Positions 49,602-64,000 of a stretch of 64,000 nt of DNA are shown here, one piece after another. A program made the translations under genes and the position numbers. The notes beneath the pieces were generated by a model. The model was given only the letters and a program-made list of their open reading frames with translations, was not told the DNA's origin and did no database searches. This stretch comes from Flavobacteriales bacterium (GTDB lineage: Bacteria; Bacteroidota; Bacteroidia; Flavobacteriales_F; PHOS-HE28). The DNA lies in assembly GCA_019638085.1 (NCBI GenBank), contig JAHBUL010000004.1:166444-230443 (forward strand), written 5' to 3'. Positions within the stretch are counted from its first letter, which is position 1. Each line of letters begins with the position of its first letter.

Positions 49602-51551
49602 CTAGACCGCCAAGGGCAGGGTGAAGGAGAAGATGGAACCCTTCCCCTCCTCGCTTTCCACGGCCATCTGGCCGCCATGCCGCTTCACGATATCCGCCAC
49701 GAGATATAGGCCGATCCCGAAGCCATCAATGTGTGTGGCCCTCTCCTTGTTCTTCACCCGGTAAAACCGCTGGAAGATGAGTTCCTGTTCGCTTTTCGGG
49801 ACGCCAACACCGTGGTCGGCCACGGAGATCAACACCGTATCGGGGCCCAGCTCGCACGCAACGCCCACCTCCTTCCCCTTCGCTGAATATTTCACGGCAT
49901 TGCCCAATAGATTGCCCAACACCTGCGCGATGCGGTAGCGATCCGCGTGCACGGGTGCTTGGGCACAGCCCTCCATGTTGAAGATCCGGTCCGGATGGTT
50001 CCGCCGCATCTCATCCACCACGTTCCGCACCACCTCCGTCACATTGAAATGCGAGAGGTCCAACTCCAAGGTCCCTTGCTTCAGGGTGGAAACGTCCACC
50101 AGATCGGAAAGCAGGCGCGTGAGCTTCTCCAACTGGCGCCCCATCATATCCAGTATTTGGCGCTGCTCCGTTTCCATATCGTCCTTCCCCTCGATCTGGA
50201 GCAGATCCACGCACGACCGCAGTGTGCTCAACGGATTCCGCATTTCATGGCCGGCCATGCCGATCAGGAAATTCTTTTCCTGCTCCTGTTCCTTCATCGT
50301 CTGGATGTCCGTGCTGGTACCCACCCAAAGATGGATCTTGCCTTCCTTATCGCGCAGCGGCCTTGCCCGGCTTAGCTGCCAGCGGTATTCGCCATCCTTC
50401 CTGCGGAAGCGATGCTCGAAAAGGAAGTCCTTGCCCGAGGTGATCGCTTCGGTCCACATCCGCATGTTGGCTTCCCGCTCATCGGGGTGTACGATCTCCA
50501 GCCAACCTTGGGCGTTGAGCTCCGAAGCAGGGATCCCGCTGTAATCGCTTACGGCCTGGTTGAAGTAGTTCAGTTCACCATCCGGCTTTCCGGTCCATAC
50601 GAACTGCGGCATGGAGTCGGCCAAGAGCCGGAACCGGGCCTCGCCGGATTCCGCGCGTTGCTTGGCGAGCACTGTCTCGGTAACATCGGAACCCACCGCC
50701 ATCACAGCCTCGTACGCACCATCCGGTCCCACCAACGGCTCGAAGGTGAAATTGAGATAGGCGGTCACCGTTTCAAGATCGTGTTGAAAGTGTACGGGAA
50801 GTTCAGTGGCATAGTAGGGTATTCCTGCCAGCGCATCGCCGAGGAACTTGCCGAAGCCTTGTTCCTTCAATTCAGGCAGCACTTCCAGTATGGGCCGGCC
50901 CTCTACCGCATTCCGTTCACGACCCCAGATCTCCAAGGCTCGTTCATTGGCGATCTCCACCACATGATCCGGTCCATTGAACACGGCCACGGCCACCGGT
51001 GCTTGATGTACGATCGAACGGATCAGATCTTCGTTCGATCGGGATTGGGCCAAGGCCGCCACCTTCTCCGTGGTTTCGAGGCAGGTGACCAATATCCCGA
51101 CCACCTGGCCCGATCCATCCTTGGCTGGGCTGTAGCTGTAGGTCCAATACACATCCTCGATCCGGCCGTTGCGCAGGATCGGGACCAGTTCATCCTCATG
51201 CCAAAAGCTTTCCCCAGTGGAAAGCACACGCCCAAACCGGGGTTGCATGGTCCCCCATGCCTCGGCAAAAGCCTCGTTGGCCGTAGCGCCCAAAATGCCG
51301 GGGTGTTTGCCATCGTTGCCCAAGCTGGGCCGGAAGGCATCGTTATAGAAGCAATAGAGTTCGGGTCCCCAATAGATGAGCATTGGGAACCGGTTGCCAA
51401 GGATGGTGTTCAATAAGCTCCTGAGCAGTGGGGGCCAGCTCTCCATTTTCCCCAAGGGATGGTGCGACCAATCCTTGCGATCGATCAAGCGAGCCATTTC
51501 GTGCCCTGCCGACCCAAAGGTCCCCGCCAGATCATTACCTCGGTCGTCCAT
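49602..51551 (-). CDS. PAS domain sensor histidine kinase
   Basis: ATG 51551 (MDDRGNDLAG) is preferred; the frame is open to 51890 with weak coding character. The product is 649 residues. An N-terminal PAS-like domain (NRFPMLIYWGPELYCFYNDAF) is followed by two more PAS domains (~140-250 and ~270-390), a HisKA domain with MAGHEMRNPLSTLRSCV, and an HATPase with LGNLLGNAVKYSAKG, VADHGVGVPKSEQELIF and GFGIGLYL. It lacks transmembrane helices, so it is a cytoplasmic sensor. It is divergent from the YtxH gene; no dedicated regulator is adjacent. Confidence 0.92.
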   Translation of the reverse strand: MDDRGNDLAGTFGSAGHEMARLIDRKDWSHHPLGKMESWPPLLRSLLNTILGNRFPMLIYWGPELYCFYNDAFRPSLGNDGKHPGILGATANEAFAEAWGTMQPRFGRVLSTGESFWHEDELVPILRNGRIEDVYWTYSYSPAKDGSGQVVGILVTCLETTEKVAALAQSRSNEDLIRSIVHQAPVAVAVFNGPDHVVEIANERALEIWGRERNAVEGRPILEVLPELKEQGFGKFLGDALAGIPYYATELPVHFQHDLETVTAYLNFTFEPLVGPDGAYEAVMAVGSDVTETVLAKQRAESGEARFRLLADSMPQFVWTGKPDGELNYFNQAVSDYSGIPASELNAQGWLEIVHPDEREANMRMWTEAITSGKDFLFEHRFRRKDGEYRWQLSRARPLRDKEGKIHLWVGTSTDIQTMKEQEQEKNFLIGMAGHEMRNPLSTLRSCVDLLQIEGKDDMETEQRQILDMMGRQLEKLTRLLSDLVDVSTLKQGTLELDLSHFNVTEVVRNVVDEMRRNHPDRIFNMEGCAQAPVHADRYRIAQVLGNLLGNAVKYSAKGKEVGVACELGPDTVLISVADHGVGVPKSEQELIFQRFYRVKNKERATHIDGFGIGLYLVADIVKRHGGQMAVESEEGKGSIFSFTLPLAV

Positions 51552-51669
51552 ATCCCAATGTTCAAGCGGTGAAAATAACTTGAGCCGAAGTTTCCCGGAC
51601 CTGAAGTTCCAATGTGGGTGAAAATGGCTTTGGCCCGACTCTGGCAAGACTTCCGGAAACCACATCAAA

Positions 51670-51918
51670 ATGACGAACAGGAACATCCTTATTGCTTTGT
51701 TGGGCGCAGGCTTGGCCGGTGCCACCGTCGGCTTACTGCTGGCCCCGGATTCAGGGAAGACCACCCGAAAGAAGTTGATGAAAAAGGCGCTGAGCGCAAA
51801 GGACAGCATTGCATATTGCTTGCTCCAGGTAGAGGAGCAGATGGACCACATGCGGGGAAAATTGGGGAAGGATGCCGACACCGCGACCAACCCCGAACTT
51901 CACGCTTCCGATAAGTGA
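51670..51918 (+). CDS. YtxH domain protein
   Basis: This 82-residue protein has an N-terminal membrane helix (ILIALLGAGLAGATVGLLLAP) and the YtxH signature LLAPDSGKTTRKKLMKKA. The charged C-terminus is helical. YtxH proteins are small stress-associated membrane proteins. It is divergent from the PAS kinase and precedes a charged hypothetical protein. Confidence 0.85.
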   Translation: MTNRNILIALLGAGLAGATVGLLLAPDSGKTTRKKLMKKALSAKDSIAYCLLQVEEQMDHMRGKLGKDADTATNPELHASDK

Positions 51919-51945
51919 ACGATCATGCTCTAATACACAGGACCG

Positions 51946-52356
51946 ATGAACACTGCACATCCAAAAAAGAACGACAAACCTGAAAGGCACGGCCCCATCC
52001 CCCACGACCCTCGGGACGAACCCTTGCCCACCGGAAAACCGGACGAGAAGAGCCGCTCACGGGAAGAGGCCGAAGAGGAGGCCCGCAGAGAGGAAGGAGT
52101 GGACATGAAGCAGAAGGAAAGGGACATCCCCAAGGAGCTCTCCGAGGACGCTGTGATCGTGAACCCGACCGCCGATGATGAACTGCCCACAGGCATACAG
52201 ACCGGCCAAACCACCCGGGGATCCTACTCCACGGATACCAGCACTGGAGGGGGACGCTATGCGGACCACCGGGCCGGAAGGTTCGGTACAACGGATGTGG
52301 CCCAACCCGGGAACGACCAGACCGTGGAACCGGACCCGATCGACCCTGAGCTTTAA
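51946..52356 (+). CDS. charged, probably disordered hypothetical protein
   Basis: This 136-residue protein is highly charged (SREEAEEEARREEGVDMKQKERDIPKELSEDAVIVNP) with a Gly/Thr/Asp-rich tail and no membrane segment. It is probably disordered. ATG 51946 lies 27 bases after the YtxH stop, so co-transcription is likely. Confidence 0.6.
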   Translation: MNTAHPKKNDKPERHGPIPHDPRDEPLPTGKPDEKSRSREEAEEEARREEGVDMKQKERDIPKELSEDAVIVNPTADDELPTGIQTGQTTRGSYSTDTSTGGGRYADHRAGRFGTTDVAQPGNDQTVEPDPIDPEL

Positions 52357-52426
52357 GGTGCGCGTGAAAGGCGGATCGCCTGTTCGTTAGTGCACCCGCT
52401 CCGCAAATAAAACACCGCACAAAGCC

Positions 52427-53626
52427 ATGATGGATCTACGCTCGGGGATGCCGTACCACTGGATCCTCAATGGACTTCCCCACACCTATCCCTTGCTGGA
52501 CCACGACGCGCAAACCACGGCCTTGGTCGTGGGGGGAGGAATAACCGGTGCCCTTTGCGCACAGGCTTTGGCCGATGCAGGCATCGAGGTCCTCGTGGTG
52601 GAAGCAGGTTCCATTGCTACACGAAGCACCAGCGCCAGCACGGCCCTGCTGCAGTACGAGTTGGATACACCGCTGCACATCCTCGCCGGCCAAGTAGGCG
52701 AAGCAACGGCCGTGCGTAGCTATCAACTTTGCGCCGAAGCCATCGAAAGCATCATGCTCCTGGCGGAAACGCTGGGAGAATGCGCTGCCACGCGACGGGT
52801 AAGCCTGCAATACGCCAGTAAGCGCGGCCATGTGGAGCAACTGGAAACGGAGCATACATTCCGGAAAAAGCATGGCTTCGAGACCGACCTTTTAGCGGCA
52901 CGCGAAGTGAGGAAACGCTTTGGCTTCCGCAAGCCCGCAGGCCTGGTCAGCCACAAGGCCGCAGAGATCGATCCGTATCGCTTTACCCACTTGCTCTTAC
53001 AGGATGTCCTCAAAAAGGGTGGCCGCGTGATGGACCGTACCAAGGTGGTCTCAAGCGAACGAAGCAACTCCGGTTACCTGCTGCGAACGGATAAAGGCCA
53101 TCTTATCCACGCCGAGCATGTGGTGATGGCCACCGGCTACCAGAGCCAGCGTTATGTGGATGAGCCGGGCATCCAATTGCACTCCACCTATGCCATCGCC
53201 AGCGAACGCATCCCGATTGCGGAGCCGTGGTACCGCAATGCACTGATCTGGGAAACCGCCACACCCTACCTCTACCTGCGGACCACGCCTGATGGTCGCA
53301 TCCTTATCGGAGGGCTTGATGAAGGCTTCCGCAATCCGGCCCTGCGCGACAAACTACTGGACCGCAAAGCGAGGAAGCTGGAGAAGTTGTTCAAAAAGCT
53401 TTTTCCGGAGATCCCCTTCAAGACCGAGTACAGTTGGTGCGGCACCTTCGGTGGCACTTCCGATGGGCTGCCGTACATCGACCGCGATCCGCGAACAGGT
53501 GCATGGTACGTATTGGGCATGGGCGGCAACGGCATTACCTTCAGCAAGGTGGGCGCGGGCATGGTGCGCGACCACATCCTTGGCAGACCCGGCCCCGATG
53601 CGGGCATGTTCCGCTTCGGGCGTTAA
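52427..53626 (+). CDS. FAD-dependent oxidoreductase (DAO family)
   Basis: This 399-residue flavoprotein has the FAD-binding Rossmann motif VVGGGITGALCAQALADAGIEVLVVE (about residues 36-61), a central region, the HVVMATGY motif and a C-terminal GTSDGLPYIDRDP...YVLGMGGNGITFSKVGAGMV segment typical of the D-amino-acid oxidase/glycine oxidase family. The substrate cannot be read. The stop overlaps the convergent iron-permease gene by four bases. Confidence 0.92.
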   Translation: MMDLRSGMPYHWILNGLPHTYPLLDHDAQTTALVVGGGITGALCAQALADAGIEVLVVEAGSIATRSTSASTALLQYELDTPLHILAGQVGEATAVRSYQLCAEAIESIMLLAETLGECAATRRVSLQYASKRGHVEQLETEHTFRKKHGFETDLLAAREVRKRFGFRKPAGLVSHKAAEIDPYRFTHLLLQDVLKKGGRVMDRTKVVSSERSNSGYLLRTDKGHLIHAEHVVMATGYQSQRYVDEPGIQLHSTYAIASERIPIAEPWYRNALIWETATPYLYLRTTPDGRILIGGLDEGFRNPALRDKLLDRKARKLEKLFKKLFPEIPFKTEYSWCGTFGGTSDGLPYIDRDPRTGAWYVLGMGGNGITFSKVGAGMVRDHILGRPGPDAGMFRFGR

Positions 53627-54000
53627 TCCTCACCGCGTTTCTTTTTCGCGAGTCGCTGATATTCATCGCGGAGTTTCTTCATGTCCTCCTCTTCCAACTC
53701 CTCCAGATCAAGGAGCTTATCATCCGCCTTGCCGTGCGACTTGATCAATTCGTCCAGCTTTACTTGTACGGCCTGGCTGTCCCGGTTCTGCGTGTTCTGG
53801 ATCAGGAACACCATGAGGAAGGTGATGATGGTGGTGCCCGTATTGATCACCAACTGCCAAGTATCGCTGTATTGGAATATCGGACCTGTGATGGCCCAAA
53901 CCACGATCGCCAATACAGCGACCCCGAATACTACAGGCGTACCTGCATAGTGGGAAGTGGCTTTTGCAAAACGTGTGAACAAGGATGGATCGTGGGACAT
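53623..54000 (-). CDS. low-affinity iron permease family protein
   Basis: ATG 54000 (MSHDPSLFTRFAKATSHYAG) gives 125 residues, with two transmembrane helices (TPVVFGVAVLAIVVWAITGP and LVINTGTTIITFLMVFLIQ) and the NTQNRDSQAVQVKLDELI motif of the PF04120 low-affinity iron permease family. The tail is a charged coiled coil. Iron transport by single small bacterial members is not well proven. A longer frame from 54063 lacks support. Confidence 0.88.
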   Translation of the reverse strand: MSHDPSLFTRFAKATSHYAGTPVVFGVAVLAIVVWAITGPIFQYSDTWQLVINTGTTIITFLMVFLIQNTQNRDSQAVQVKLDELIKSHGKADDKLLDLEELEEEDMKKLRDEYQRLAKKKRGED

Positions 54001-54195
54001 GGCTGCTTTTTGATCTGGCCAGTGGCATGTTACGGGCCAGATCCGCGAGCAAGCGAGATGCACTTCAACCGCCGGTACGGCAGAATGGAGAAACTTCCTC
54101 AGCCGGGGAAGAACTTACCGAGAAAAAACGCGAGGCCACCTGAGGAAATGCTCATGGTCCATGATCTGTATCAACCCGCATGTACCAATACCCGA

Positions 54196-54390
54196 ATGAA
54201 AATGCCACGCGGAGATAAAGACAAGTACACGGACAAACAAAAGCGCCAGGCCGCGCACATCGAGGAAAGTGAAAAGAAGGAAGGCAAAAGTGAGAAGACG
54301 GCCGAACGCATTGCTTGGGCCACGGTGAACAAGCAGGACGGCGGTGGGAAGAAAAGCGGCAGTGGAAGAAAACCTGCCTCGAAGGACTGA
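54196..54390 (+). CDS. small basic protein with GGGKKSGSG tail
   Basis: ATG 54196 (MKMPRGDKDKYTDKQKRQAAH) gives 64 residues; the huge frame from 53434 is an artefact. The sequence (EKTAERIAWATVNKQDGGGKKSGSGRKPASKD) belongs to a small conserved bacterial family seen in many stress contexts, sometimes annotated as plasmid stabilisation protein. Function unknown; highly basic and perhaps DNA-binding. Confidence 0.75.
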   Translation: MKMPRGDKDKYTDKQKRQAAHIEESEKKEGKSEKTAERIAWATVNKQDGGGKKSGSGRKPASKD

Positions 54391-54466
54391 TCGGTCCGTG
54401 CTTACTTCTGCCGTAGAGCAGTCCCTGTGAGTTGGGACGTTTGCCATGGCGAGCATGGCCCGAGTT

Positions 54467-55723
54467 CTACTTTTCCGGCTTCAGTGCGCGTTCCATGAGC
54501 GCGGAGATCACCAAGCCCAAGAGGACAAAGCCCGTGAACAGGTAGAAGCCCAGTTCCAGTGCGGACCTGTTGGTGGTCATGATGTGGATGCTGGACGATA
54601 GATCACGCAGCTGGGCGAGTTGGCTGTTCACCAGGCCGTTGAACCCCAAGTAGGTCATGAACATCGCCACCACCAATACATCGGCCATGGACCACTTCGC
54701 GCTTTTCAGCACAAAGAAGCGCAGTACCTTGCTCTTTGGAAGTTTATTGCGCAGCACGCTAGTGAAGGAAAGGATGAGCTTGGTAAAGGGGAAGGCCACA
54801 CTGAAGCAGAACACCAGCACCGCTACGAGCATCAGGGCTGGGTCCCGGTCCTCCAAAAGCAGCCAGATCACTTGCAGGATGCTCCTGCTCTCGTAGAACA
54901 GCACTTGATCGCTGAAGGTGATGGGACCACCCAACACAACGAGCTTGAAGGAGGTGATGCGCGCCTCGATATCGATCATCGGCATCAGCAATGCGGTGAC
55001 CAGGAGCACTGTGGCGCTCAGCAGTAGCACGGCCAGATCCAATTTGCGGGGGGCCTCGCGGATGAGCATCAGCACTACCATCAGAACGATCAATCCAAGA
55101 ATGGCCCAGCCATAGGCCGTGCGTGTATTCTCCAGTACCGCTCGATCATGCCGCAAGGAGGCGATCCCCGCTTTGGGATCGGTGAAACCGTACCGGGCCA
55201 TGATCCGATCATGGAGATGCATGTCGATCTTCCCTGAGGTTTCCGCGGCCAATGAATCCAATTGGTCCAATGCAAAACCCTTCAGTTTCTCCCGGTTGGC
55301 GGGTTTGTCCAATTCATCCAGGACGCTCTCGGCATACTCCGGGATGTCCGCGCGTATGGCATCCATCGGCACCACGGCATTCATCACCGCTTTGCGAAGG
55401 GTGCCCTTCACGCCGTGGTCGTGGTCGTCCACCGTGCGGCGTAACTCGTCGAGCACTTGGCGCATCGCCTTCTCAAGCTGCTCTTTCACTACCACACGGT
55501 CCTTCCCTTCGATCTTGAAGGTGATGATCTCCTGGGCCACTATGGCCTTTATCGCATCCTTCCAGCGGTCCGGGTTGAACAGGCCATAGTTGATGGAGCT
55601 CAGCTCCATCTCATCGGCTTTCAATTGATGGGACCGCTGCTCCACATTATGCACCAGCAGGCTGCACACCGTGAGCGCAAGGGCCAGGAGAACGAGAAGT
55701 ACCGAGCGTAGCTTTTTGTACAT
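54467..55723 (-). CDS. PqiA-like membrane protein
   Basis: ATG 55723 (MYKKLRSVLLVLLALALTVC) gives 418 residues, with an N-terminal membrane helix and a large extracytoplasmic helical segment (~35-210). Four further helices (~235-410) in the C-terminal half resemble the paraquat-inducible protein A domain: VFCFSVAFPFTKLILSFTSVLR, KSAKWSMADVLVVAMFMTYLGF. PqiA proteins help envelope lipid transport with PqiB/MCE proteins; no MCE gene is adjacent. The extended N-terminal domain is unusual for PqiA. Confidence 0.82.
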   Translation of the reverse strand: MYKKLRSVLLVLLALALTVCSLLVHNVEQRSHQLKADEMELSSINYGLFNPDRWKDAIKAIVAQEIITFKIEGKDRVVVKEQLEKAMRQVLDELRRTVDDHDHGVKGTLRKAVMNAVVPMDAIRADIPEYAESVLDELDKPANREKLKGFALDQLDSLAAETSGKIDMHLHDRIMARYGFTDPKAGIASLRHDRAVLENTRTAYGWAILGLIVLMVVLMLIREAPRKLDLAVLLLSATVLLVTALLMPMIDIEARITSFKLVVLGGPITFSDQVLFYESRSILQVIWLLLEDRDPALMLVAVLVFCFSVAFPFTKLILSFTSVLRNKLPKSKVLRFFVLKSAKWSMADVLVVAMFMTYLGFNGLVNSQLAQLRDLSSSIHIMTTNRSALELGFYLFTGFVLLGLVISALMERALKPEK

Positions 55724-55805
55724 GCGCAGGTATTGCTTATGAACAGCATTCGCACCAACAAGGTTCACTGCATTCCAGAGCGCGGCGTGGCCTTATGCTT
55801 GGAAT

Positions 55806-55847
55806 TAAAAAGCGGGACCCGGACGACCGCCCGGATCCCGCTCCTTT
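55806..55847 (-). terminator. terminator after DUF2383 paralog 3
   Basis: On the minus strand AGCGGGATCCGGG and CCCGGGTCCCGCT form a stem with a central CGGTCG part, followed by TTTTTAA. It lies just after the stop at 55861. Confidence 0.8.
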
Positions 55848-55860
55848 GAAATGGACGCGT

Positions 55861-56322
55861 TCACTTCTCCACCGCTTCCATGCTTTTCCGCAGGGTCTTC
55901 ACCATCGCCAAGTTCTCGCGTATCTGTTCGCGATGGATGTTGAGGAGCTGCCTGGTGGAGGCATCGACATCGTGGTCCGCGATCACCTCGTCATAGCGCT
56001 GCAGGATGTAATTCTCCCCCCGTTCGCACTCGTTGAGCATGTTGGTATTATCCGCAGTGCCCAGCGCCTCCCGGATATCGATCCAAGCGCGGTGCAGATC
56101 GCCCTTCACCGTACCATCCTGCAGCCGATCATCGGGACGTAAGCGGCGGATCACTCCTGCCATTTCCGCCTGCATGCTATCGCGTTGTCGGCTCAACCGT
56201 TCCAATAGTTCCGCCAGTTGCGGATGGTCCACTTTCCGGGCCGTCTCGTGGTAGCCTTTCCGGCCATCCGCCAGCAGTTCGTGCAGGTCGTTCAATTCCT
56301 TGATCGCATCATTCCGTTCCAT
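55861..56322 (-). CDS. DUF2383 (PA2169-type) four-helix protein, paralog 3
   Basis: ATG 56322 (MERNDAIKELNDLHELLADGRKGYHETARKVDHP) gives 153 residues; the frame start at 56364 is dropped. The core LHRAWIDIREALGTADNTNMLNECERGENYILQRY aligns with paralogs 1 and 2. It has its own terminator. The shared motif of the other stress genes is absent upstream. Confidence 0.85.
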   Translation of the reverse strand: MERNDAIKELNDLHELLADGRKGYHETARKVDHPQLAELLERLSRQRDSMQAEMAGVIRRLRPDDRLQDGTVKGDLHRAWIDIREALGTADNTNMLNECERGENYILQRYDEVIADHDVDASTRQLLNIHREQIRENLAMVKTLRKSMEAVEK

Positions 56323-56494
56323 GAGGGTGTGTTTTTTCGAAGAGCGTTGCGAGATCCGCGCCACTACCGGTTCTCGAACGGAATGGACCTACAGGTGAGC
56401 AGTTCCATGCACATGGAGCCAATTCATGGGGAGCTTCTTCACGTGGACGGCATGGACGGAGCCCTTCAACCTGGCAGACGGTCCGAATCGCTTA

Positions 56495-57268
56495 TCACAC
56501 GCCCTGAACAGGCAACTCCACTTCCACCGTGATCAACTCCTCCCGGTTGCCTTCACATTGCGCGATCACTTTCTTCAGCGGGTCGGTCACCTGCGAGCGG
56601 CCGGAAAGAACGCTCTTCACCCCGCCCTGCTCCAGCACCCCTGCGGCATTGCAGTATGCGAACACCACATTGTTCTCGAAGGCACGCGTGGTGCAAAGTG
56701 AATCGATCAAATGGATCTCGTCCTGCATCTTCACCGTGCCTTCCGGCCCATCCTGCGGGAATGACCAATAGCTGGGGGACAGGATGAGTTGCACACCCTG
56801 CGCGTTCATGGCGGCGAAGAGCTCCGGGAATGCAATGTCCCAGCAGATCGAGAGGCCCACCCGCCCGAACCGCGTGGTGAAGACCGATGCAACAGTACCC
56901 GGTGCCAGCGCAGCGGACTCCGTTTCCCACAGGTGGATCTTGCGGTAACTACCCGCCACTAACCCTTGTGCCGTAATGTAGTGTGCTTGATTGTACAGTG
57001 CCCCGTCCTCCGCCACGGTCCACGTACCGGGAACAAGATCCACTTGATGCTTTATCGCCAAGGCCTGCATGCGCGCCAGATAGGCGTCACTGTGCGCAAC
57101 AAAACCCGTTTGCCCGCTGAGCGGACCGCATACGGCATCCTCCGGGAACACGACCAGGTCCGCGCCCTTGGCTTTCGCTTGTGCCGTGAATTCCTCCATA
57201 CGCGCCAAATTCTTCAGCGGCGCACCCGGTTCGATCAGGAATTGTACCAAGGCGAGGGTGAAGGACAT
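56495..57268 (-). CDS. nitrilase/carbon-nitrogen hydrolase family protein
   Basis: This 257-residue enzyme has the Glu-Lys-Cys triad of the family: Glu43 in VVFPEDAVCG, Lys in SYRKIHLWETE and Cys in LSICWDIAFPELF. It probably cleaves an amide such as an omega-amidase or N-carbamoyl substrate; no specificity can be assigned. Length and start are normal. The small gene at 57357 lies 88 bases upstream. Confidence 0.92.
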   Translation of the reverse strand: MSFTLALVQFLIEPGAPLKNLARMEEFTAQAKAKGADLVVFPEDAVCGPLSGQTGFVAHSDAYLARMQALAIKHQVDLVPGTWTVAEDGALYNQAHYITAQGLVAGSYRKIHLWETESAALAPGTVASVFTTRFGRVGLSICWDIAFPELFAAMNAQGVQLILSPSYWSFPQDGPEGTVKMQDEIHLIDSLCTTRAFENNVVFAYCNAAGVLEQGGVKSVLSGRSQVTDPLKKVIAQCEGNREELITVEVELPVQGV

Positions 57269-57356
57269 GCCGTTGCTGTGTTCGTATGGTGTTAGGACAA
57301 GGAATCCGCTCCAGTGATCACCTTGAACACTTCTGCTGCCCAGCCCTGTTTTCGAG

Positions 57357-57593
57357 CTACTTCACGCCTTGCTCACGCACGGTTCCCATCCGTTCCTCGA
57401 TGCTGCGCTGCACCCTTCCCCACACCGCCTCATCCATGTCCGTAAGATTGCCCACATCGATGCGCATATCGGCCAAGTGCAAGGAATTCCCCATGTTCTC
57501 CATGGTGGCGCCCAAGCCAAGCAGTGTACGCAGGCGGGATACCCTGCGGTTAATGCGGTCCATACCGGGAGCGAAGACGTTCTTGGTTTCCAT
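57357..57593 (-). CDS. small hypothetical protein
   Basis: ATG 57593 (METKNVFAPGMDRINRRVSRLRTLLG) gives 78 residues; the frame from 57641 uses TTG. It is basic and helical with LHLADMRIDVGNLTDMDEAVWGRVQRSIEERM at the end. No family recognised. It is between the nitrilase and the giant sensor protein. Confidence 0.55.
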   Translation of the reverse strand: METKNVFAPGMDRINRRVSRLRTLLGLGATMENMGNSLHLADMRIDVGNLTDMDEAVWGRVQRSIEERMGTVREQGVK

Positions 57594-57676
57594 GTGAGGT
57601 AAATAAGAGGAGCCGTGCTCCCGTGTACCGGCCATGTGCAATATCCATGCCCCTACCCGATCTAGGGGGCGGGTCC

Positions 57677-60600
57677 TCAGGCGGTGGACCTATCCGTCAA
57701 GGTGCTGAACAACATGGCCCGGTCCACCGGTTTCACCAAGTGCTTGTCAAAGCCGGCCTCTTGGGATCGCATCTTATCCTCCTTTTGTCCCCAGCCGCTC
57801 AAGGCGATGATCCGCACCCCTTTGGCCCACTCCGTGGTGCGCATTCGGCGGCAGGTCTCGTAGCCGTCCATGCCCGGCATGCCGATGTCCATGAAGATCG
57901 TGTCCGGTCGGAAGCTTTCGCCCACCCGCAATGCCTCCTCTCCGCTATGCGCGGTATGTACATCCGCCTCCTTGGACCGCAAGAGCAGCGAAAGCATCAA
58001 GGCGGAATCCGCATTATCATCCACCACGAGAACACGCATGCCCTTCACAGTGGCGTGTACCGCGGGCAATACCGGCTGCGCCGCTGGAGGCGCATCGGTG
58101 ATCGGCAATTGAACGGTGAACACTGCGCCTACACCACCCGGCCCGTCGGATACGTTCACCGTACCTCCGTGCATTTCCACCAAGCGCTTCACCAAATGCA
58201 GCCCGATGCCCAGTCCGCCCGCCTCCACCCGGTTCTCGGGATCCACTTGGCTGAACATCTCGAAGACATGCGCATGCTGGCCCGCAGGTATCCCTATTCC
58301 GTTGTCCGCAACGGTCACCTTCAGAACCGCGTCCTGTACATCCGCCCGCACCTCGATCTTTCCCTCTTCGGGGGTGAACTTGCTGGCGTTATGCAGGAGG
58401 TTGCTGAAGATCTGGGTGATCCGCACTTTGTCCCCATGGATGTGTACGGTGCGCGGGCTTGAACGGAATTCGATGGTCTGTCGCTTCTTAGTGATGAAGG
58501 GCATCTCCGTTTCAATGGCCTCCTGCATGGCCTCCATCGGCTCCATGGGCTTGCGCCGCAGCTTGAGGCGGCCAGTGCTTATCCGGCCCAGGTCCAATAG
58601 ATCATCCACCAGTTGCACCAGATGGTCCACTTGCCGCTGCATCACCTTGCGCGTTTGCCGGAACTCCTCGTCGCCGTCCATGCTCTTGAGCAACTCGAGC
58701 CCGCTGCGTAGTGGTGCCATGGGGTTACGCAGTTCGTGCGCCAAGGTGGCCAGGAACTCATCCTTCCGGCGATCGGCCTTTTGCAAGGCTTCCTCGGCCC
58801 GCATCATATCCGTGATGTCCGTGCAGGTGCCGAACCATTGCTCCACCTTCCCTTGTTCACCCCGGCCCGGAGAGGCACGGGCGAGCATCCATCGGTATTC
58901 GCCGTCATACCGCTTCAACAGGAAGGTGCTCTCCCAAGCTTCGTCCTGCCCCACATGATGGCTGATCGTCTGCCGCACCTCCTCGAAATGATCGGGATGG
59001 AGCAGTTGCTCGTAATCCGAAAGGAGCTGATCAGGTGTCAGGCCCGTGAATTCACGCCATCGCTCATTGAACCAATAGTTGCTGTTGTCCGCCTTGCGGA
59101 TCCATGCCAATTGGTCCATGTTCTCGGCCAACAGCTTGAACCGCTGCTCGCTCTCGTCCAAGGAGGCCGCCAGCCGCTTCACCTCCGAGATGTCGCGTTC
59201 GATCTTGGAGATGCCGACGATGGAACCTTCCGCTGCGCGCAGCGGGGAAACCGTGAGCGATACCTGCACCGCGTGGCCGTCCTTGTGCAGCCGTACCGTT
59301 TCGAAAAAATCCACTTGTTCACCGGCAATGATGCGCGCCACCAACTTGTGTACTTCGTCCTTCCGGTCAGGGGGAAGTATGCGGTCCAACGAGCCGCCCA
59401 CCATTTCCTTCGCCGTCCAGCCGAACATGCGTTCCGACCCTTGGTTCCAGCTCAGTACATTGCCCTCAAGGTCCAAGCTCAGGATGCCGTCGCGGGAACT
59501 GGTGACTATCGCCGCCAGCCGTTGCAGCGCATCATTGGACCTCTGCCGTTCGGTCACATCCTCCAAGGTCACCAGCAACCGTTGCTGGGGCCCGAGGTGA
59601 TCGATGCGTCGTGCATTCACCACAAAGGTGTGCTCCTCATTTGAAGGATAGATGTGCTTCACCTCGAAGCCCACCATCTCCGTACCGTGCTGCAACACGT
59701 CCATCAGCAGGCGGCGTAGTCCCTCCACATCCCAGCGGTGGTTACCGATCTCGTGGATCAAAACGCCCTCCACCTCCTCCTTGGTGGTCTGGAAGGCCCG
59801 GTGGAAGGCCGGGTTCGCTCGCCGGACGCGCAATTGCGCATTCAATACCACCAGCGGGGTGGCCATGGTGGCGATGATGCCCTCGGCATAGTCCCTGGAT
59901 TCCTTCAACTCCAATTGGCGCTGGAGCAATTCATCATTGATGGTGATCAACTCTTCGTTGGTGCTCTGCAATTCCTCCTTGCTGGTCTCCAGTTCCTCGT
60001 TCATGCTTTGCAGCTCCTCATTGCTGGAAAGCATTTCCTCGTGGGCTGTTTGCAACTGCTCATCATTGAACTCGGACTCCTCGGTAAGCACACGCATCTG
60101 CTCCCGCACATCGCGGACTTCGCGCTCCAGCAGCAGTATGCGCCGGTCCTTGGCGCTTTCGGTTCCGGCTTTGGCCATGGCCGGCGAAGCGTTCTTCCCG
60201 GCGTTCCCCTCGTTGAGGAACACGATCAAGTAGTGCTCTTCTTCCCCGGGGGCACCCATCGGCGCCACTTCGATGTCAACCGTACTGGCCACACCATCGA
60301 TACTGTACTGCACTTTGCTGCCCACCGCGGGAACATGATCTTCCTTCACTTTGCGCAACAGCCCACGCAACTCGAACACCAGATCCTCCCGTACCAGCTT
60401 CAGCAGGTGCAGGCTTGCCTTCCCGCTCTGTGGGGACAGGTACGGTGCGGTGTTGCCGCGGAAACGGACGACCTCGAGCGAGCGGTTCACCACGATGCTC
60501 GCCGGTACATGCCGGTGCAGGAGCAAGCGATCGGCCTCCTGGTCCAGCCCCTGCTCCAGCCCGCGGCGGCCCACTGCCCGCACAACGGTTGGGATGGGCG

Positions 60601-62269
60601 CGCGTTCGCCATTACCCCGCGAGGGGTATGGACCATGTACCTGTACGCGCTTCGTGCTACCGTTCTTCCTGAAGAACTTCTCCTCCTTGTTCAACACAAT
60701 GAACATTTCCTCGGCCGCGCTCACGGATTCCGACCGGCCCAAGGCCAGAACGCCATCGGCGCGGAGCGCGTAGTGGAAATTCTGAAGCACGTGGCGCTGT
60801 GCGCTCTGGTCAAAGTAGATCAGTACGTTCTGACAGCTCACCAGGTCCATCCGCGAGAACGGGGGGTCCTTCAGCAGGTCATGATGCGCAAAGACGCACA
60901 TGTCCCGTATGGTCTTCACCACTTGGAAGGAACCGTCCTTCTTCTTGAAATAGCGGTTCAGTATGGTCGGTGACAGCCCTTCCATGGCGGACTTGCCGTA
61001 GATGCCGGAGCGTGCCTTCTCCACCATCTTCGGGTCAAGGTCCGTGGCGAAGATCTGCACCGGGATCTCCGTTCCCGAGGTGCGCGCGTGTTCGAGGAAG
61101 GTGATCGCTATGGACACCGCCTCCTCCCCGCTGGAGCAGCCGGCCACCCACACGCGTATCGGCATTTCCTTATTCTCCCGTTCCTGGAACCGGGGCAGGA
61201 TCTGCTCCTTCAGTGCCGTGAAGAACCTCGCCTCCCGGAAGAAGGAGGTCACGTTGATCAAGAGGTCGTTGAAGAGAAGGTCCACTTCTTTCGGGTCCTT
61301 GTCCAAGAGTTGGGCGTAGGCCTCGAGGTCCTTCAGTTTGTGGAGTACCAACCGGCGCAGGATACGGCGCTTGATGGTGGCCCTTTTATACTTCTGGAAA
61401 TCCACCCCGGTACGCAAGCGCAACAGCGCAAGAATGTCCGCCAGGCCGGGATCCGCGTTGGATGCCGACAGCGCACCGCTGGCCACGGCATTGAGCGGGT
61501 GGCGGTGCAAGAGGGCCAGTTGCCGGGCGATGCCTTCCGGCGAAAGCACGAAATCCACCACGTTTGCCTCTATGGCACTGCGCGGCATATCCTGGAACTG
61601 GGCCGAATCGTCCTGTGCAAAGGTCCATCCGCCCCCTGCACGGATGGCCTTGAGACCCAAGGTGCCATCACTTGCAGTGCCTGAAAGCACAATGCCCACA
61701 GCGCTCATTTGATAGGCTTCCGCCAGTGCGACCATGAACCCGTTGATGGGGTGGAAACCCTTCAGGGATTTCTGCCTTGGTGTGCGCAAGGTGAGCAGGC
61801 CGTCCACCATGCCCATGTTGGCGTTGGGCGGGATCACATACACCGTGTCCGGTTGCAATGGCAGTGCATTCTCCACCAGTACCACGGGCATGCTGGTATG
61901 CTTCCGGAGGATCTCCGGCAGCTGGCTCTCGTGGTCGGGGCTCAGGTGCGACACCACCACATAGGCCATCCCGAGGTCGGGCTGCAGGACCTTCAACAGG
62001 TCACGTACGGCTTCCAACCCCCCGGCCGATGCGCCGATGGCCACCACAGGAAATGGTTTCGCTTGCCCGGACCGCTCCTTGTCCAGTTCACCCAGCATCC
62101 GTAATATGGCTTCCCTGGTGAACGTGATCTCATCTCCGCTCGTGGTCGTCTCCAGCCTCCCCTCCTTCACCCATTCCTGAACGCGATCGATGTCCACGTG
62201 CATCAGTTCGGCCGCTTCAGCCAAGGACACCCGCTCCGCGACCGGTTTCAGCATCTTCTTCTTCGCCAT
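57677..62269 (-). CDS. giant CheB-CheR-PAS-histidine kinase-receiver hybrid
   Basis: This 1530-residue protein fuses chemotaxis-like and two-component domains. An N-terminal excisionase/MerR-like helix-turn-helix (about 13-60, RVSLAEAAELMHVDIDRVQEWVKEGRL) is followed by a CheB methylesterase (~70-250: GASAGG, SHLSPDHES, SGTASDGTLG) and a CheR methyltransferase (~270-500: KRRILRRLVLHKL, AGCSSGEEAVSIA). A long coiled coil (~715-790) leads to three PAS domains (~790-1160), then HisKA (LAHELRNPMAPLRSG, ~1179), HATPase (LLHNASKFTPEE, ~1291) and a receiver (VVDDNADSALML ... DIGMPGMDGYET ... LVKPVD, ~1410-1520). Likely a soluble sensor; its targets are unknown. ATG 62269 lies downstream of a hairpin. 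Confidence 0.93.
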   Translation of the reverse strand: MAKKKMLKPVAERVSLAEAAELMHVDIDRVQEWVKEGRLETTTSGDEITFTREAILRMLGELDKERSGQAKPFPVVAIGASAGGLEAVRDLLKVLQPDLGMAYVVVSHLSPDHESQLPEILRKHTSMPVVLVENALPLQPDTVYVIPPNANMGMVDGLLTLRTPRQKSLKGFHPINGFMVALAEAYQMSAVGIVLSGTASDGTLGLKAIRAGGGWTFAQDDSAQFQDMPRSAIEANVVDFVLSPEGIARQLALLHRHPLNAVASGALSASNADPGLADILALLRLRTGVDFQKYKRATIKRRILRRLVLHKLKDLEAYAQLLDKDPKEVDLLFNDLLINVTSFFREARFFTALKEQILPRFQERENKEMPIRVWVAGCSSGEEAVSIAITFLEHARTSGTEIPVQIFATDLDPKMVEKARSGIYGKSAMEGLSPTILNRYFKKKDGSFQVVKTIRDMCVFAHHDLLKDPPFSRMDLVSCQNVLIYFDQSAQRHVLQNFHYALRADGVLALGRSESVSAAEEMFIVLNKEEKFFRKNGSTKRVQVHGPYPSRGNGERAPIPTVVRAVGRRGLEQGLDQEADRLLLHRHVPASIVVNRSLEVVRFRGNTAPYLSPQSGKASLHLLKLVREDLVFELRGLLRKVKEDHVPAVGSKVQYSIDGVASTVDIEVAPMGAPGEEEHYLIVFLNEGNAGKNASPAMAKAGTESAKDRRILLLEREVRDVREQMRVLTEESEFNDEQLQTAHEEMLSSNEELQSMNEELETSKEELQSTNEELITINDELLQRQLELKESRDYAEGIIATMATPLVVLNAQLRVRRANPAFHRAFQTTKEEVEGVLIHEIGNHRWDVEGLRRLLMDVLQHGTEMVGFEVKHIYPSNEEHTFVVNARRIDHLGPQQRLLVTLEDVTERQRSNDALQRLAAIVTSSRDGILSLDLEGNVLSWNQGSERMFGWTAKEMVGGSLDRILPPDRKDEVHKLVARIIAGEQVDFFETVRLHKDGHAVQVSLTVSPLRAAEGSIVGISKIERDISEVKRLAASLDESEQRFKLLAENMDQLAWIRKADNSNYWFNERWREFTGLTPDQLLSDYEQLLHPDHFEEVRQTISHHVGQDEAWESTFLLKRYDGEYRWMLARASPGRGEQGKVEQWFGTCTDITDMMRAEEALQKADRRKDEFLATLAHELRNPMAPLRSGLELLKSMDGDEEFRQTRKVMQRQVDHLVQLVDDLLDLGRISTGRLKLRRKPMEPMEAMQEAIETEMPFITKKRQTIEFRSSPRTVHIHGDKVRITQIFSNLLHNASKFTPEEGKIEVRADVQDAVLKVTVADNGIGIPAGQHAHVFEMFSQVDPENRVEAGGLGIGLHLVKRLVEMHGGTVNVSDGPGGVGAVFTVQLPITDAPPAAQPVLPAVHATVKGMRVLVVDDNADSALMLSLLLRSKEADVHTAHSGEEALRVGESFRPDTIFMDIGMPGMDGYETCRRMRTTEWAKGVRIIALSGWGQKEDKMRSQEAGFDKHLVKPVDRAMLFSTLTDRSTA

Positions 62270-62284
62270 ACCGTTCTATTTGTA

Positions 62285-62317
62285 CTGGCCCGGTGCGGGG
62301 TGGCACACACCGGCCAG
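62285..62317 (-). promoter_or_regulatory. leader hairpin before the giant sensor gene
   Basis: CTGGCC and GGTG near 62285-62295 pair with CACC and GGCCAG at 62308-62317, with a single bulge. The hairpin occupies bases 16 to 48 upstream of ATG 62269 and could influence translation. It has no downstream T tract. Confidence 0.45.
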
Positions 62318-62516
62318 CATGCAGCGAATATAATGGCGTTCATGGGGTTTCCACACCCGCCCCGGCAACGGAAAGCACTTGCCCGCCAGCGGGAGCTTAT
62401 CCTCATATGTTTTCATCCAAAAGGGTGGGTGGAATGAGATGCATCCGCTGTGCAAGGTGGGCAGCACCCATAGTGCCCGTGGACCTTTGCCCACGTATTG
62501 CCCCATCGGTGACGGC

Positions 62517-63059
62517 TCAGAATTTTTCCTCCTGTGGGATGGTGGCTTCCTGTGATGCCTTCGCGATATCGCGGTCCAGCTCGTACAGGTTCACATTGCC
62601 ATCCTTCTTCGTGGTGGCCAGCACGTAGAGGTCCAGCAGGTTGTTCACCAAGGTCTCTTCCTCCACCTGTTCTTTCACGAACCACTGGGCGAAATTCAAG
62701 GTTGCCCAGTCCCTTTCCTTGTGTGCGAGATCAGCCAAGTGGTCGATCAGTTTGGAGTTCTCCACCTCGTGCTGGAGCAGCTTCTTCAGGCAATCGCCCA
62801 GGTCCTTGGGGTCGGCCGGTGCCGCTTGTATGGCGTCAACCTTCACTTTCCCACCACGGTTAAGTATGTACTTGAGGATCTTGAACATGTGCTCCCGTTC
62901 CTCGTGCGCGTGCTTGTACAGGAAATCGGAGGTACCTGCATAGTGAGCGCCCTCCGCCCAAGCCCCATAGGAGAGGTACACTTGGGCCTGCCAAGCCTCC
63001 TGCGTCATTTGAGCGTTGAGTGCTTTCTCCATCGATGCGCTGATCCGTTTTGTTGCCAT
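62517..63059 (-). CDS. ftnA: ferritin
   Basis: This 180-residue non-heme ferritin stores iron. The four-helix bundle carries ferroxidase-type residues: EAWQAQVYLSYGAWAEG, HAHEEREHMFKIL (the EExxH pair), LQHEVENSKLIDHLADLAH and WFVKEQVEEETLVNNLLDLY. Length is as expected. It is encoded near other stress genes and a topoisomerase IB. A plausible promoter with a long T run lies in the 63060-63080 region, not resolved further. Confidence 0.94.
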   Translation of the reverse strand: MATKRISASMEKALNAQMTQEAWQAQVYLSYGAWAEGAHYAGTSDFLYKHAHEEREHMFKILKYILNRGGKVKVDAIQAAPADPKDLGDCLKKLLQHEVENSKLIDHLADLAHKERDWATLNFAQWFVKEQVEEETLVNNLLDLYVLATTKKDGNVNLYELDRDIAKASQEATIPQEEKF

Positions 63060-63169
63060 GGGTCCGCTCTTTTTTTTGCATCACCGGCCATTCCGTCGGC
63101 AGGTGCGAAAAGGAACAACGCACTTCGGCAATTCGTTCACGATGCCGGCAAGATGATGGGGGCGCGGGC

Positions 63170-64000
63170 TCATTTTTCCGTGCAGATCCGCATCAGGACC
63201 TTTTCTGCCAGCGACAAGGCATGGCGGCTCCGGCCTTCGCGCAACCCTTCTGCCATCGCGGACAACGTACCTGCTTCGGCATGTTCCATGGCGCGGGGAT
63301 GGATGTAATGCGAACGGCAGACCGCGCGGGTATTCCCGAGCTGCTCCGCCACCTCATCGATCATGGTCACCACGCAACTGCGACGCGCGGTGAGGCTGGG
63401 GGCCGGCCCCATCCGCAATGCCGCCTCCACGAAGCAAGCACTTCCCTGCCATGTGCGTAGGTCCTTGCTGGTGAAGTCCCCATGCGTGGCCGTGCGTATG
63501 TACTCGTTCACCATTCCGGAATCCACCGCATGTACTTCACCGGCCTCATCCTCGTATTGGAACAGGTGCTGGCCCGGCAATTCCTTGCAGCGCATCACCA
63601 AGCGGGCCAAGCGTTTGCTGCGCAGTCCCACGTCGTGCGTCTTCCCGGATTTACCCTTGAACCGCAGGTGTGTCCCGGAGCGGTCCTTTTTCAGGTGATG
63701 GTCCTTCAAGGTGCTCAGGCCGAAGCTGCCATTGGCCTGGGCATAGGCCTTGTTGCCCACCCGCATGCGTGTGCGCTCCATGATGGCGATCACGCCTGCC
63801 AGCACTTTCTCCTTGGGCATGCCTTGCCTGCGCAGATCGGCATCCACCACCTTGCGCATCTTCGGAAGCGCCTTGCCCAACGCGGCCAAGCGATCGAACT
63901 TTACTTGCCCGCGCACCTTGCCCCAGCGCGCGTGGTAGCGGTATTGCTTCCGCCCCTTCACATCAATGCCGGTGGCCTGCAGGTGACCGTTGGCGTACGG
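63170..64000 (-). CDS. DNA topoisomerase IB, N-terminus beyond the right edge
   Basis: The frame continues unbroken through the right edge (codons spell ...PYANGHLQATGIDVKGRKQYRYH), so this is the C-terminal 276 residues of a topoisomerase IB. It has the catalytic Tyr in SHYIHP, the active-site Arg in TSKDLRTWQGS, conserved KGRKQYRYH and HLRFKGKSGKTHDV elements of the poxvirus-like family. It relaxes supercoils by a 3'-phosphotyrosine link. The enzyme is often found in stress-related gene neighbourhoods of environmental bacteria. The stop is at 63170. Confidence 0.93.
   Translation of the reverse strand, partial: PYANGHLQATGIDVKGRKQYRYHARWGKVRGQVKFDRLAALGKALPKMRKVVDADLRRQGMPKEKVLAGVIAIMERTRMRVGNKAYAQANGSFGLSTLKDHHLKKDRSGTHLRFKGKSGKTHDVGLRSKRLARLVMRCKELPGQHLFQYEDEAGEVHAVDSGMVNEYIRTATHGDFTSKDLRTWQGSACFVEAALRMGPAPSLTARRSCVVTMIDEVAEQLGNTRAVCRSHYIHPRAMEHAEAGTLSAMAEGLREGRSRHALSLAEKVLMRICTEK

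Follow-up and report, generated by a model that had tools for sequence, protein, structure and literature searches.

A protein that carries the methylesterase CheB and the methyltransferase CheR in one chain, without a chemoreceptor gene near it and with a helix-turn-helix (HTH) at its N-terminus, raises the question of what these two enzymes would modify and whether such a sensor could also contact DNA. The gene for this protein lies in a stretch of 64,000 nucleotides of a Flavobacteriales genome (contig JAHBUL010000004.1), which is called the window here, and its ORF (57677-62269, minus strand) starts with ATG and is open over 1530 amino acids (aa). An in-frame stop is found 5' of the ATG with two codons in between, which limits the N-terminus and places the winged HTH (wHTH) within this ORF. 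The features assigned to the gene and to its leader are the following:

57677..62269, minus strand: hybrid sensor kinase of 1530 aa, in the order wHTH-CheB-CheR-PAS-coil-PAS(n)-HisKA-HATPase-REC (open ORF, Pfam)
62285..62317, minus strand: leader hairpin, 14 pairs with a bulge, of weak significance and absent in two relatives
62069..62236, minus strand: MerR/excisionase-type winged helix-turn-helix, aa 12-67 (Pfam HTH_17, topology, Foldseek, VIA-align)
61517..62044, minus strand: CheB methylesterase domain, aa 76-251 (Pfam; triad Ser81/His108/Asp201 kept)
60680..61444, minus strand: CheR_N and CheR methyltransferase, aa 276-530 (Pfam, CheR_N 276-326 and CheR 339-530, both above cut-off; comparison with Salmonella residues)
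60212..60547, minus strand: PAS-like domain 3' of CheR, aa 575-686 (from the secondary structure of the model only)
59867..60154, minus strand: single predicted helix of 96 residues, aa 706-801 (model), which contains the glutamate-pair heptads
59927-60061, minus strand: Glu-pair heptads, aa 737-781, inside that predicted helix
58826..59503, minus strand: PAS domains ahead of the kinase, PAS_4 at aa 923-1032 and PAS_3 at aa 1067-1148 (Pfam)
58097..58765, minus strand: histidine kinase core, aa 1169-1391 (Pfam, HisKA 1169-1233 and HATPase_c 1279-1391, both above cut-off), with AHELRNP at aa 1177 as the phospho-acceptor motif
57701..58033, minus strand: C-terminal receiver, aa 1413-1523 (Pfam Response_reg), with MDIGMPGM at aa 1460 as the phospho-acceptor motif

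The architecture originally predicted, a CheB-CheR-PAS-kinase-receiver giant with an N-terminal HTH-like domain, was borne out by Pfam and by the models, with CheB, CheR_N, CheR, PAS, HisKA and HATPase all found in the one ORF and with a further weak PAS_7 match at aa 800-911 that falls under its cut-off. The highest mean hydropathy over 19 residues is 1.5, giving no clear membrane helix, and sequence and models place the protein among the cytoplasmic hybrid histidine kinases with fused CheB and CheR. Judged by their motifs, the catalytic sites of CheB, the kinase and the receiver are intact and that of CheR largely so. The AlphaFold2 model of aa 1-864, built from 43 rows, has a mean pLDDT of 81.5 and a pTM of 0.44, so that the packing of the domains in it is tentative.

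The N-terminal domain is found just under the Pfam threshold in the window protein and above it in two relatives. Pfam HTH_17 at aa 15-59 gives 20.9 bits in the whole protein and 26.6 bits when the domain is taken alone, against a cut-off of 27, and the NCBIfam model 'excise' gives 23.2 bits against 28.8, while the relatives G005 and G011 reach 37.8 and 37.4 bits for HTH_17. The AlphaFold2 model of aa 1-70 (three rows, mean pLDDT 77.9) and that of aa 1-864 agree in their elements (E13-15, H16-23, H27-35/36, E41/42-44, E47-51, H52-67), that is, in the E-H-H-E-E-H topology of a wHTH, and the block of aa 11-60 has a pLDDT of 86-92 in the longer and 82-89 in the shorter model, with 56 for the block of aa 61-70 in the longer one. 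The best Foldseek matches of the 70-aa model were RacA, BldC, the Xis of phage Pukovnik and HiNmlR, at a probability of 1.00 and with E-values of 0.0076 and worse, none being at or below 0.001; VIA-align gave Z of 7-8 to MerR proteins, CbpM, Xis, RacA and BldC, such Z being common according to the tool. The three-row profile matched BldC (6amk, E 6.9e-07) and Xis (4j2n, 1.2e-05), and its top match, the TALE protein 4hpz (3.4e-07), concerns the CheB part only, in nine weak pieces. Taken by sequence and model together, aa 12-67 are a winged HTH of the MerR-superfamily or excisionase type; the excisionase-like HTH of about 50 residues that the original prediction had read here is recovered, and the comparison with MerR and Xis domains proposed there gives Xis, RacA and BldC among the best structures. 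A chance match or a mis-called N-terminus was rejected, the start being limited by the upstream stop and the domain being shared by two relatives at higher scores.

Fusions of CheB, CheR, PAS and kinase are common, but the HTH is not, being found only here and in two relatives of the same genus. A search of 58 related genomes returned the two same-genus proteins, G005 and G011, with matches from residue 14 or 11, and among 45 genomes of the genus a CheB match was present in three, all of which carry the HTH. When 395 Bacteroidia genomes were searched, 139 matched, and among the matches listed only those of the window genome and G011 begin ahead of position 40 of the model; in the draw of 395 genomes across the phylum 164 matched, the window protein starting at position 1 and all others among the matches listed at 31 or later, and G005 is not among the matches listed in either draw. 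A first scan with a single sequence found no HTH elsewhere. When the species collection was scanned with the HTH-CheB junction as query, the best 80 of 357 relatives included only two records with a match ahead of query residue 48, both Flavobacteriales MAGs whose proteins are equal to those of G005 and G011, and 70 of these best 80 of 357 loci gave a readable CheB ORF. Altogether 126 CheB ORFs were read from 124 of 155 loci, with repeat reads of one gene kept in: the HTH is present in ten of them (three genomes), 107 have fewer than 50 residues ahead of the CheB motif, and the nine with longer N-termini gave no HTH family match. The plasmid matches obtained by tblastn, 30 records listed out of at least 5000, begin at residue 44 or later except for H20 and H21 of Caballeronia, whose matches seemed to reach residue 1, and H20 was rejected as a carrier because its N-terminal stretch contains a stop codon and no HTH. 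An origin from a stand-alone HTH_17 gene of the same genomes was likewise rejected, since the sole HTH_17 match in each of the three is the fusion protein itself. In the CheB-CheR tree of 43 rows a branch separates the HTH-bearing trio from all others, with a support of 94/94, just under the star of the tool, and it is present in 92% of bootstrap trees. A single gain is the simplest reading of this branch, and the HTH was probably gained once in this lineage. Surveying the fusions for the same N-terminus gave a divided answer, in that the domain occurs in the two close homologues found and is missing from the remaining CheB proteins that were read. Neither outcome that would have refuted the original prediction, absence from homologues or a predicted linker of non-DNA-binding type, was seen among the nearest relatives.

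A fold of this kind need not grip DNA, and BldC offers the residues for comparison. According to the available part of the BldC report (PMC5859096), its Arg30 and Lys26 contact bases, Thr27, Thr29, Trp31 and Lys33 contact phosphates, His46, Arg47 and Arg48 make the wing contacts, and binding is essentially lost in R30A and H46E. In the alignment the window protein has Glu32 and Asp28 at the positions of Arg30 and Lys26, and Arg29, Gln31, Trp33 and Lys35 at those of the phosphate-contacting Thr27, Thr29, Trp31 and Lys33. In the relatives Arg30 is replaced by Ala, Lys26 by Asn and Lys33 by Arg, Thr27 and Trp31 being kept; apart from the Arg30 and His46 positions, these two copies are the more canonical ones. 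The BldC wing GGHRR reads GDEIT in the window copy and GPEKV and GKEEV in the relatives, with Glu at the His46 position in all three in a wing alignment that is gapped and unsure. The net charge of the domain is -5 in the window copy and +5 and +4 in the relatives. The basic recognition helix and wing contacts of the BldC kind (R30, H46, R47, R48) are thus not found in the window copy, the wing being gapped there. The suggestion of a sensor that could also contact DNA holds for the fold and falters at the contact: because of the net -5 and of Glu at the Arg30 and His46 positions DNA binding is doubtful in the window copy, whose wHTH probably lacks a good grip on DNA.

It is unlikely, then, that the wHTH binds DNA, perhaps head-to-tail like BldC, with its occupancy set by the kinase or methylation state. 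Such a DNA-contacting sensor would accord with the fold, with the many DNA-bound proteins among the nearest structures, with the above-threshold scores (37.8 and 37.4 bits) and basic charge of the relatives' HTHs, and with the Trp and Lys/Arg retained at the W31 and K33 phosphate-contact positions, but it has to be squared with the acidic window copy, with Glu32, Asp28 and GDEIT in place of Arg30, Lys26 and GGHRR, with Ala and Asn in the helix of the relatives and Glu at the gapped His46 position of all three, and with the effect of R30A and H46E reported for BldC. A module for protein binding or oligomerisation, comparable to CbpM, whose MerR-like fold binds a J-domain protein, has a somewhat less than even chance. 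The structure 3ucs (CbpA J-domain with CbpM, where chain B is assumed to be CbpM) shares first place among the VIA-align matches (Z 8.0, rmsd 3.0, 63 residues) and the acidic composition suits a partner other than DNA; however, likeness of fold shows no function, MerR regulators equal it at Z 8.0 where Z of 7-8 is common, and no partner is known. Given the charge of the window copy and its lost contact residues, a docking role, with another protein or with itself as partner, is favoured over sequence-specific binding of DNA.

The lack of a nearby chemoreceptor gene, pointed out at the outset, proved to hold genome-wide: MCPsignal is absent from the whole window genome, which is 99% complete, and likewise from the two HTH-bearing relatives, CheW is absent from the whole window genome, so that the MCP and CheW of a canonical chemotaxis pathway are not found in it, and its one CheB and one CheR both lie within the ORF 57677-62269. 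Because the class is common, a CheB/CheR fusion without an adjoining chemoreceptor gene does not by itself imply DNA. On the upstream side of the gene are a ferritin and a type IB topoisomerase, and on the downstream side a carbon-nitrogen hydrolase and a DUF2383 protein, with a PAS kinase farther on; this clustering (window 49602-63961) looks like a stress-gene neighbourhood, and it points to no particular target gene for the HTH. Near the G011 copy a DUF2383-like and a truncated hydrolase-like gene, both named by eye, are found within 6 kb. Directly upstream of the G005 gene lies a gene with a MEDS domain (DcmR sensory; L046:7287-7868), and farther upstream a KaiC-like ATPase and a PAS kinase; the MEDS (DcmR-type) gene was rejected as a constant partner, being found at G005 only and absent in the window genome and G011.

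The hairpin claimed in the leader does exist, with its 14 pairs, and barely exceeds chance. The whole fold of 61 nt has -24.3 kcal/mol at z -1.75, with 10 of 200 shuffles equally good; the leaders of the two relatives hold nothing comparable (z -0.65 and -0.56), no Rfam family matches up to E 1, the repeat finder did not report the hairpin as an inverted repeat, and the promoter scan found none against 2.0 expected. Copies of one arm of the hairpin with up to three mismatches number 55 in the window against 41.5 expected, 2 of 100 shuffles giving as many. The hairpin is not clearly more than chance, and the relatives' leaders and Rfam do not support it as a conserved element.

A substitute for the missing chemoreceptor may lie within the protein itself, in the coil that follows CheR. 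A Glu-pair heptad coil 3' of CheR is present in all 46 fusions (L046-L125) that are at least 700 aa long and have the CheB and CheR motifs required by the filter, a non-random sample fetched by similarity to the HTH-CheB junction. In the alignment A3 of the window protein with 42 of these 46 (43 rows; L090, L104, L105 and L115 omitted as near-copies by eye), Glu744, 745, 751, 752, 759, 765, 766 and 773 are invariant at a 7-residue spacing, as are Asn771 and Asn778, and Glu758 and Glu772 are nearly so, which makes five invariant or nearly invariant Glu pairs. Position 738 is Gln in the window protein alone and Glu in the other rows. The coil at aa 737-781 is as invariant as the catalytic residues. 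The methylation consensus of methyl-accepting chemotaxis proteins (MCP), [ASTG][ASTG]xx[EQ][EQ]xx[ASTG][ASTG], after Alexander and Zhulin as quoted in the available part of PMC6829392, occurs at two coil sites in the 43 rows, against 0.5 expected by shuffling, and at none in aa 1-864 of the window protein, and the coil was therefore rejected as a strict consensus site. The relaxed form [ASTG]xx[EQ][EQ]xx[ASTG] is found in every one of the 43 rows, 247 times in 2482 coil residues, where shuffling of the coils gives 13.7, and 54 times in the 32,688 residues outside the coils; the same partial source reports DE and TQ pairs, which are outside the strict form, as further candidate sites of adaptation (PMC6829392). 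Judged by its sequence, the coil resembles tandem MCP methylation sites while failing the strict consensus.

The association of the coil with CheR was followed with a 22-row profile, made from the window row and 21 of 42 segments; at E <= 1e-5 it matched in 39 of the 198 Bacteroidia genomes searched. In 24 of the 30 coil loci returned, CheR precedes the coil within one ORF, and the remaining six are the weakest matches of the set. Among the 24, L188/L197 has its CheB in a separate overlapping frame just upstream of the CheR-coil frame (L197:4682-7968), as a split fusion or a frameshift. Among 20 regions around further coil matches that looked non-fused, a subset of such matches, one is this same case, 16 of the other 19 have neither CheB nor CheR in the fetched stretch, two of the 16 being short contigs, and three (L208, L209, L214) contain CheB and/or CheR. 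Runs of at least five Glu pairs, each 7 residues from the next, were seen in 21 of the 22 rows fused to CheR and in 3 of the 24 non-fused segments, the latter ending at the profile match, which can shorten the runs. Around stand-alone CheB, seven of ten regions hold a large ORF with a kinase motif, and a similar coil is found by the strict pattern in two of these seven (L158, L165) and in one other ORF (L161). In the Bacteroidia loci L157, L158, L163, L165 and L166, separate CheR, CheB and large sensor kinase genes stand side by side (CheR and kinase assigned by motif, CheB by motif or match position). An exclusive occurrence of the coil with CheR was rejected, as weaker Glu-pair coils exist in ORFs without CheR, and the sequence comparison speaks for a functional link of the coil with CheR that is not exclusive.

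The CheR of the HTH-bearing trio departs from that of the other fusions. With Salmonella CheR numbered as the 1AF7 alignment position plus 10, the window protein keeps the SAM-site residues R98, E129, D154 and Y235 and has Val for Y131 and Gln for R230. Both exchanges occur only in the trio among the 43 rows, the 40 others having Tyr (39) or Phe (1) at the first position and Arg (33) or Cys (7) at the second. In motif terms, the trio (window 60680-61255; L046, L047) reads GEE[AV]VS and CQN; in the rest of the aligned fusions Tyr (Phe in one) and C[RC]N stand at these places. On account of these two exchanges the CheR of the trio might be weakened.

Taken jointly, these observations are best read, tentatively and with odds falling just short of even, as a PAS-driven kinase in which CheR and CheB would methylate and demethylate the protein's own coil (aa 737-781), and in which the wHTH would be a docking module gained once. 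The PAS domains would sense an intracellular cue, leading to autophosphorylation at the histidine of AHELRNP, from where the phosphoryl group would pass to the receiver at the C-terminus; CheR and CheB would reversibly methylate the Glu pairs of the helix lying between CheR and the kinase, and this methylation would reset the sensitivity, as that of MCPs does, with the wHTH as an added docking module for a ligand that may be a protein. The self-methylation of the coil is offered as a hypothesis. In its favour stand the kept motifs, the genome with its only CheB and CheR in this ORF and with neither MCP nor CheW, the coil in 46 of 46 fusions, the excess of relaxed motifs (247 against 13.7), the position of CheR ahead of the coil in 24 of 30 loci, the wHTH fold and the 94/94 branch; against it count the strict consensus at two coil sites in 43 rows and at none in aa 1-864 of the window protein, the Y131 and R230 exchanges in the trio and the pTM of 0.44. 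Besides, the weaker Glu-pair coils in 16 of 19 non-fused regions mean that the coil could be a plain signalling helix. It is accordingly a real possibility, if one that we would not quite put at even, that CheB and CheR act on another protein or as scaffolds, and that the coil is a conserved signalling helix that holds the two kinase subunits in register. Such helices form a known class of linkers (PMC1592074, in its available part), and the occurrence of Glu-pair coils without CheR, the failed strict consensus and the exchanges in the trio's CheR would all suit such a helix, whereas the longer Glu-pair runs in CheR-fused rows (21/22 against 3/24, the non-fused being cut at the profile match), the kept SAM-binding residues of CheR and a genome without an MCP to serve as substrate would not. 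Extended to the whole class, the preferred reading of self-methylation becomes rather doubtful: a widespread family with a private adaptation, in which CheR and CheB would methylate and demethylate a built-in coil of the same chain and to which the HTH branch would add a wHTH tether, to DNA or to a partner. If true, it would mean chemotaxis-style adaptation applied to gene regulation without a chemoreceptor. The near-invariant Glu-pair coil of the same chain is a concrete and directly testable substrate candidate, and a stronger lead than the HTH.

Among known systems, the protein belongs with the CheB/CheR fusion proteins (KEGG K13924, 'CheB/CheR fusion protein'). The fusions (46 read) share with it the CheB-CheR-coil order, the catalytic motifs and the Glu-pair coil, and in the G005 relative the kinase and receiver were confirmed by Pfam as in the window protein. 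Fusions occur in at least five phyla (tree rows); tblastn with the whole protein returned at least 5000 plasmid records, many of them perhaps through the kinase part only, and 40 plasmid records match at least 80% of its length at a single place. This class is common, widespread and little studied. The literature searched, mostly open-access, gave no description of HTH-CheB-CheR proteins, of coil methylation or of a methylation target of CheB/CheR fusions. The window protein differs from the other fusions in its wHTH of about 55 aa, which replaces a short, often Lys-rich N-terminus, and together with the rest of the trio in the Y131 and R230 exchanges; a fold of DNA-binding type has apparently been joined to a CheB/CheR kinase once. 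With the MerR-like BldC of Streptomyces and the Xis of phage Pukovnik the domain has fold and sequence in common, and the topology of BldC, as given in the available part of its report, is close to the wHTH model (PMC5859096); however, BldC is described there as a stand-alone protein of 68 aa, while the window wHTH is fused, and the BldC contacts R30, K26 and H46-R48 are not kept. CbpM has a MerR-like fold like that of the window wHTH (Z 8.0) and binds the CbpA J-domain according to the title of 3ucs, but it stands alone, the likeness being one of fold. The basic relatives and the acidic window copy offer a natural comparison for DNA versus protein binding. The cfcABCDE genes of Pseudomonas putida are similar in that CheB/CheR genes lie beside a histidine kinase and a chemotaxis role was ruled out, as far as the available part of the report goes (PMC4951495), and unlike in that the genes are separate and that no HTH is mentioned in that part; their link to the fusion family is one of analogy; they give a precedent for the non-chemotactic use of CheB and CheR.
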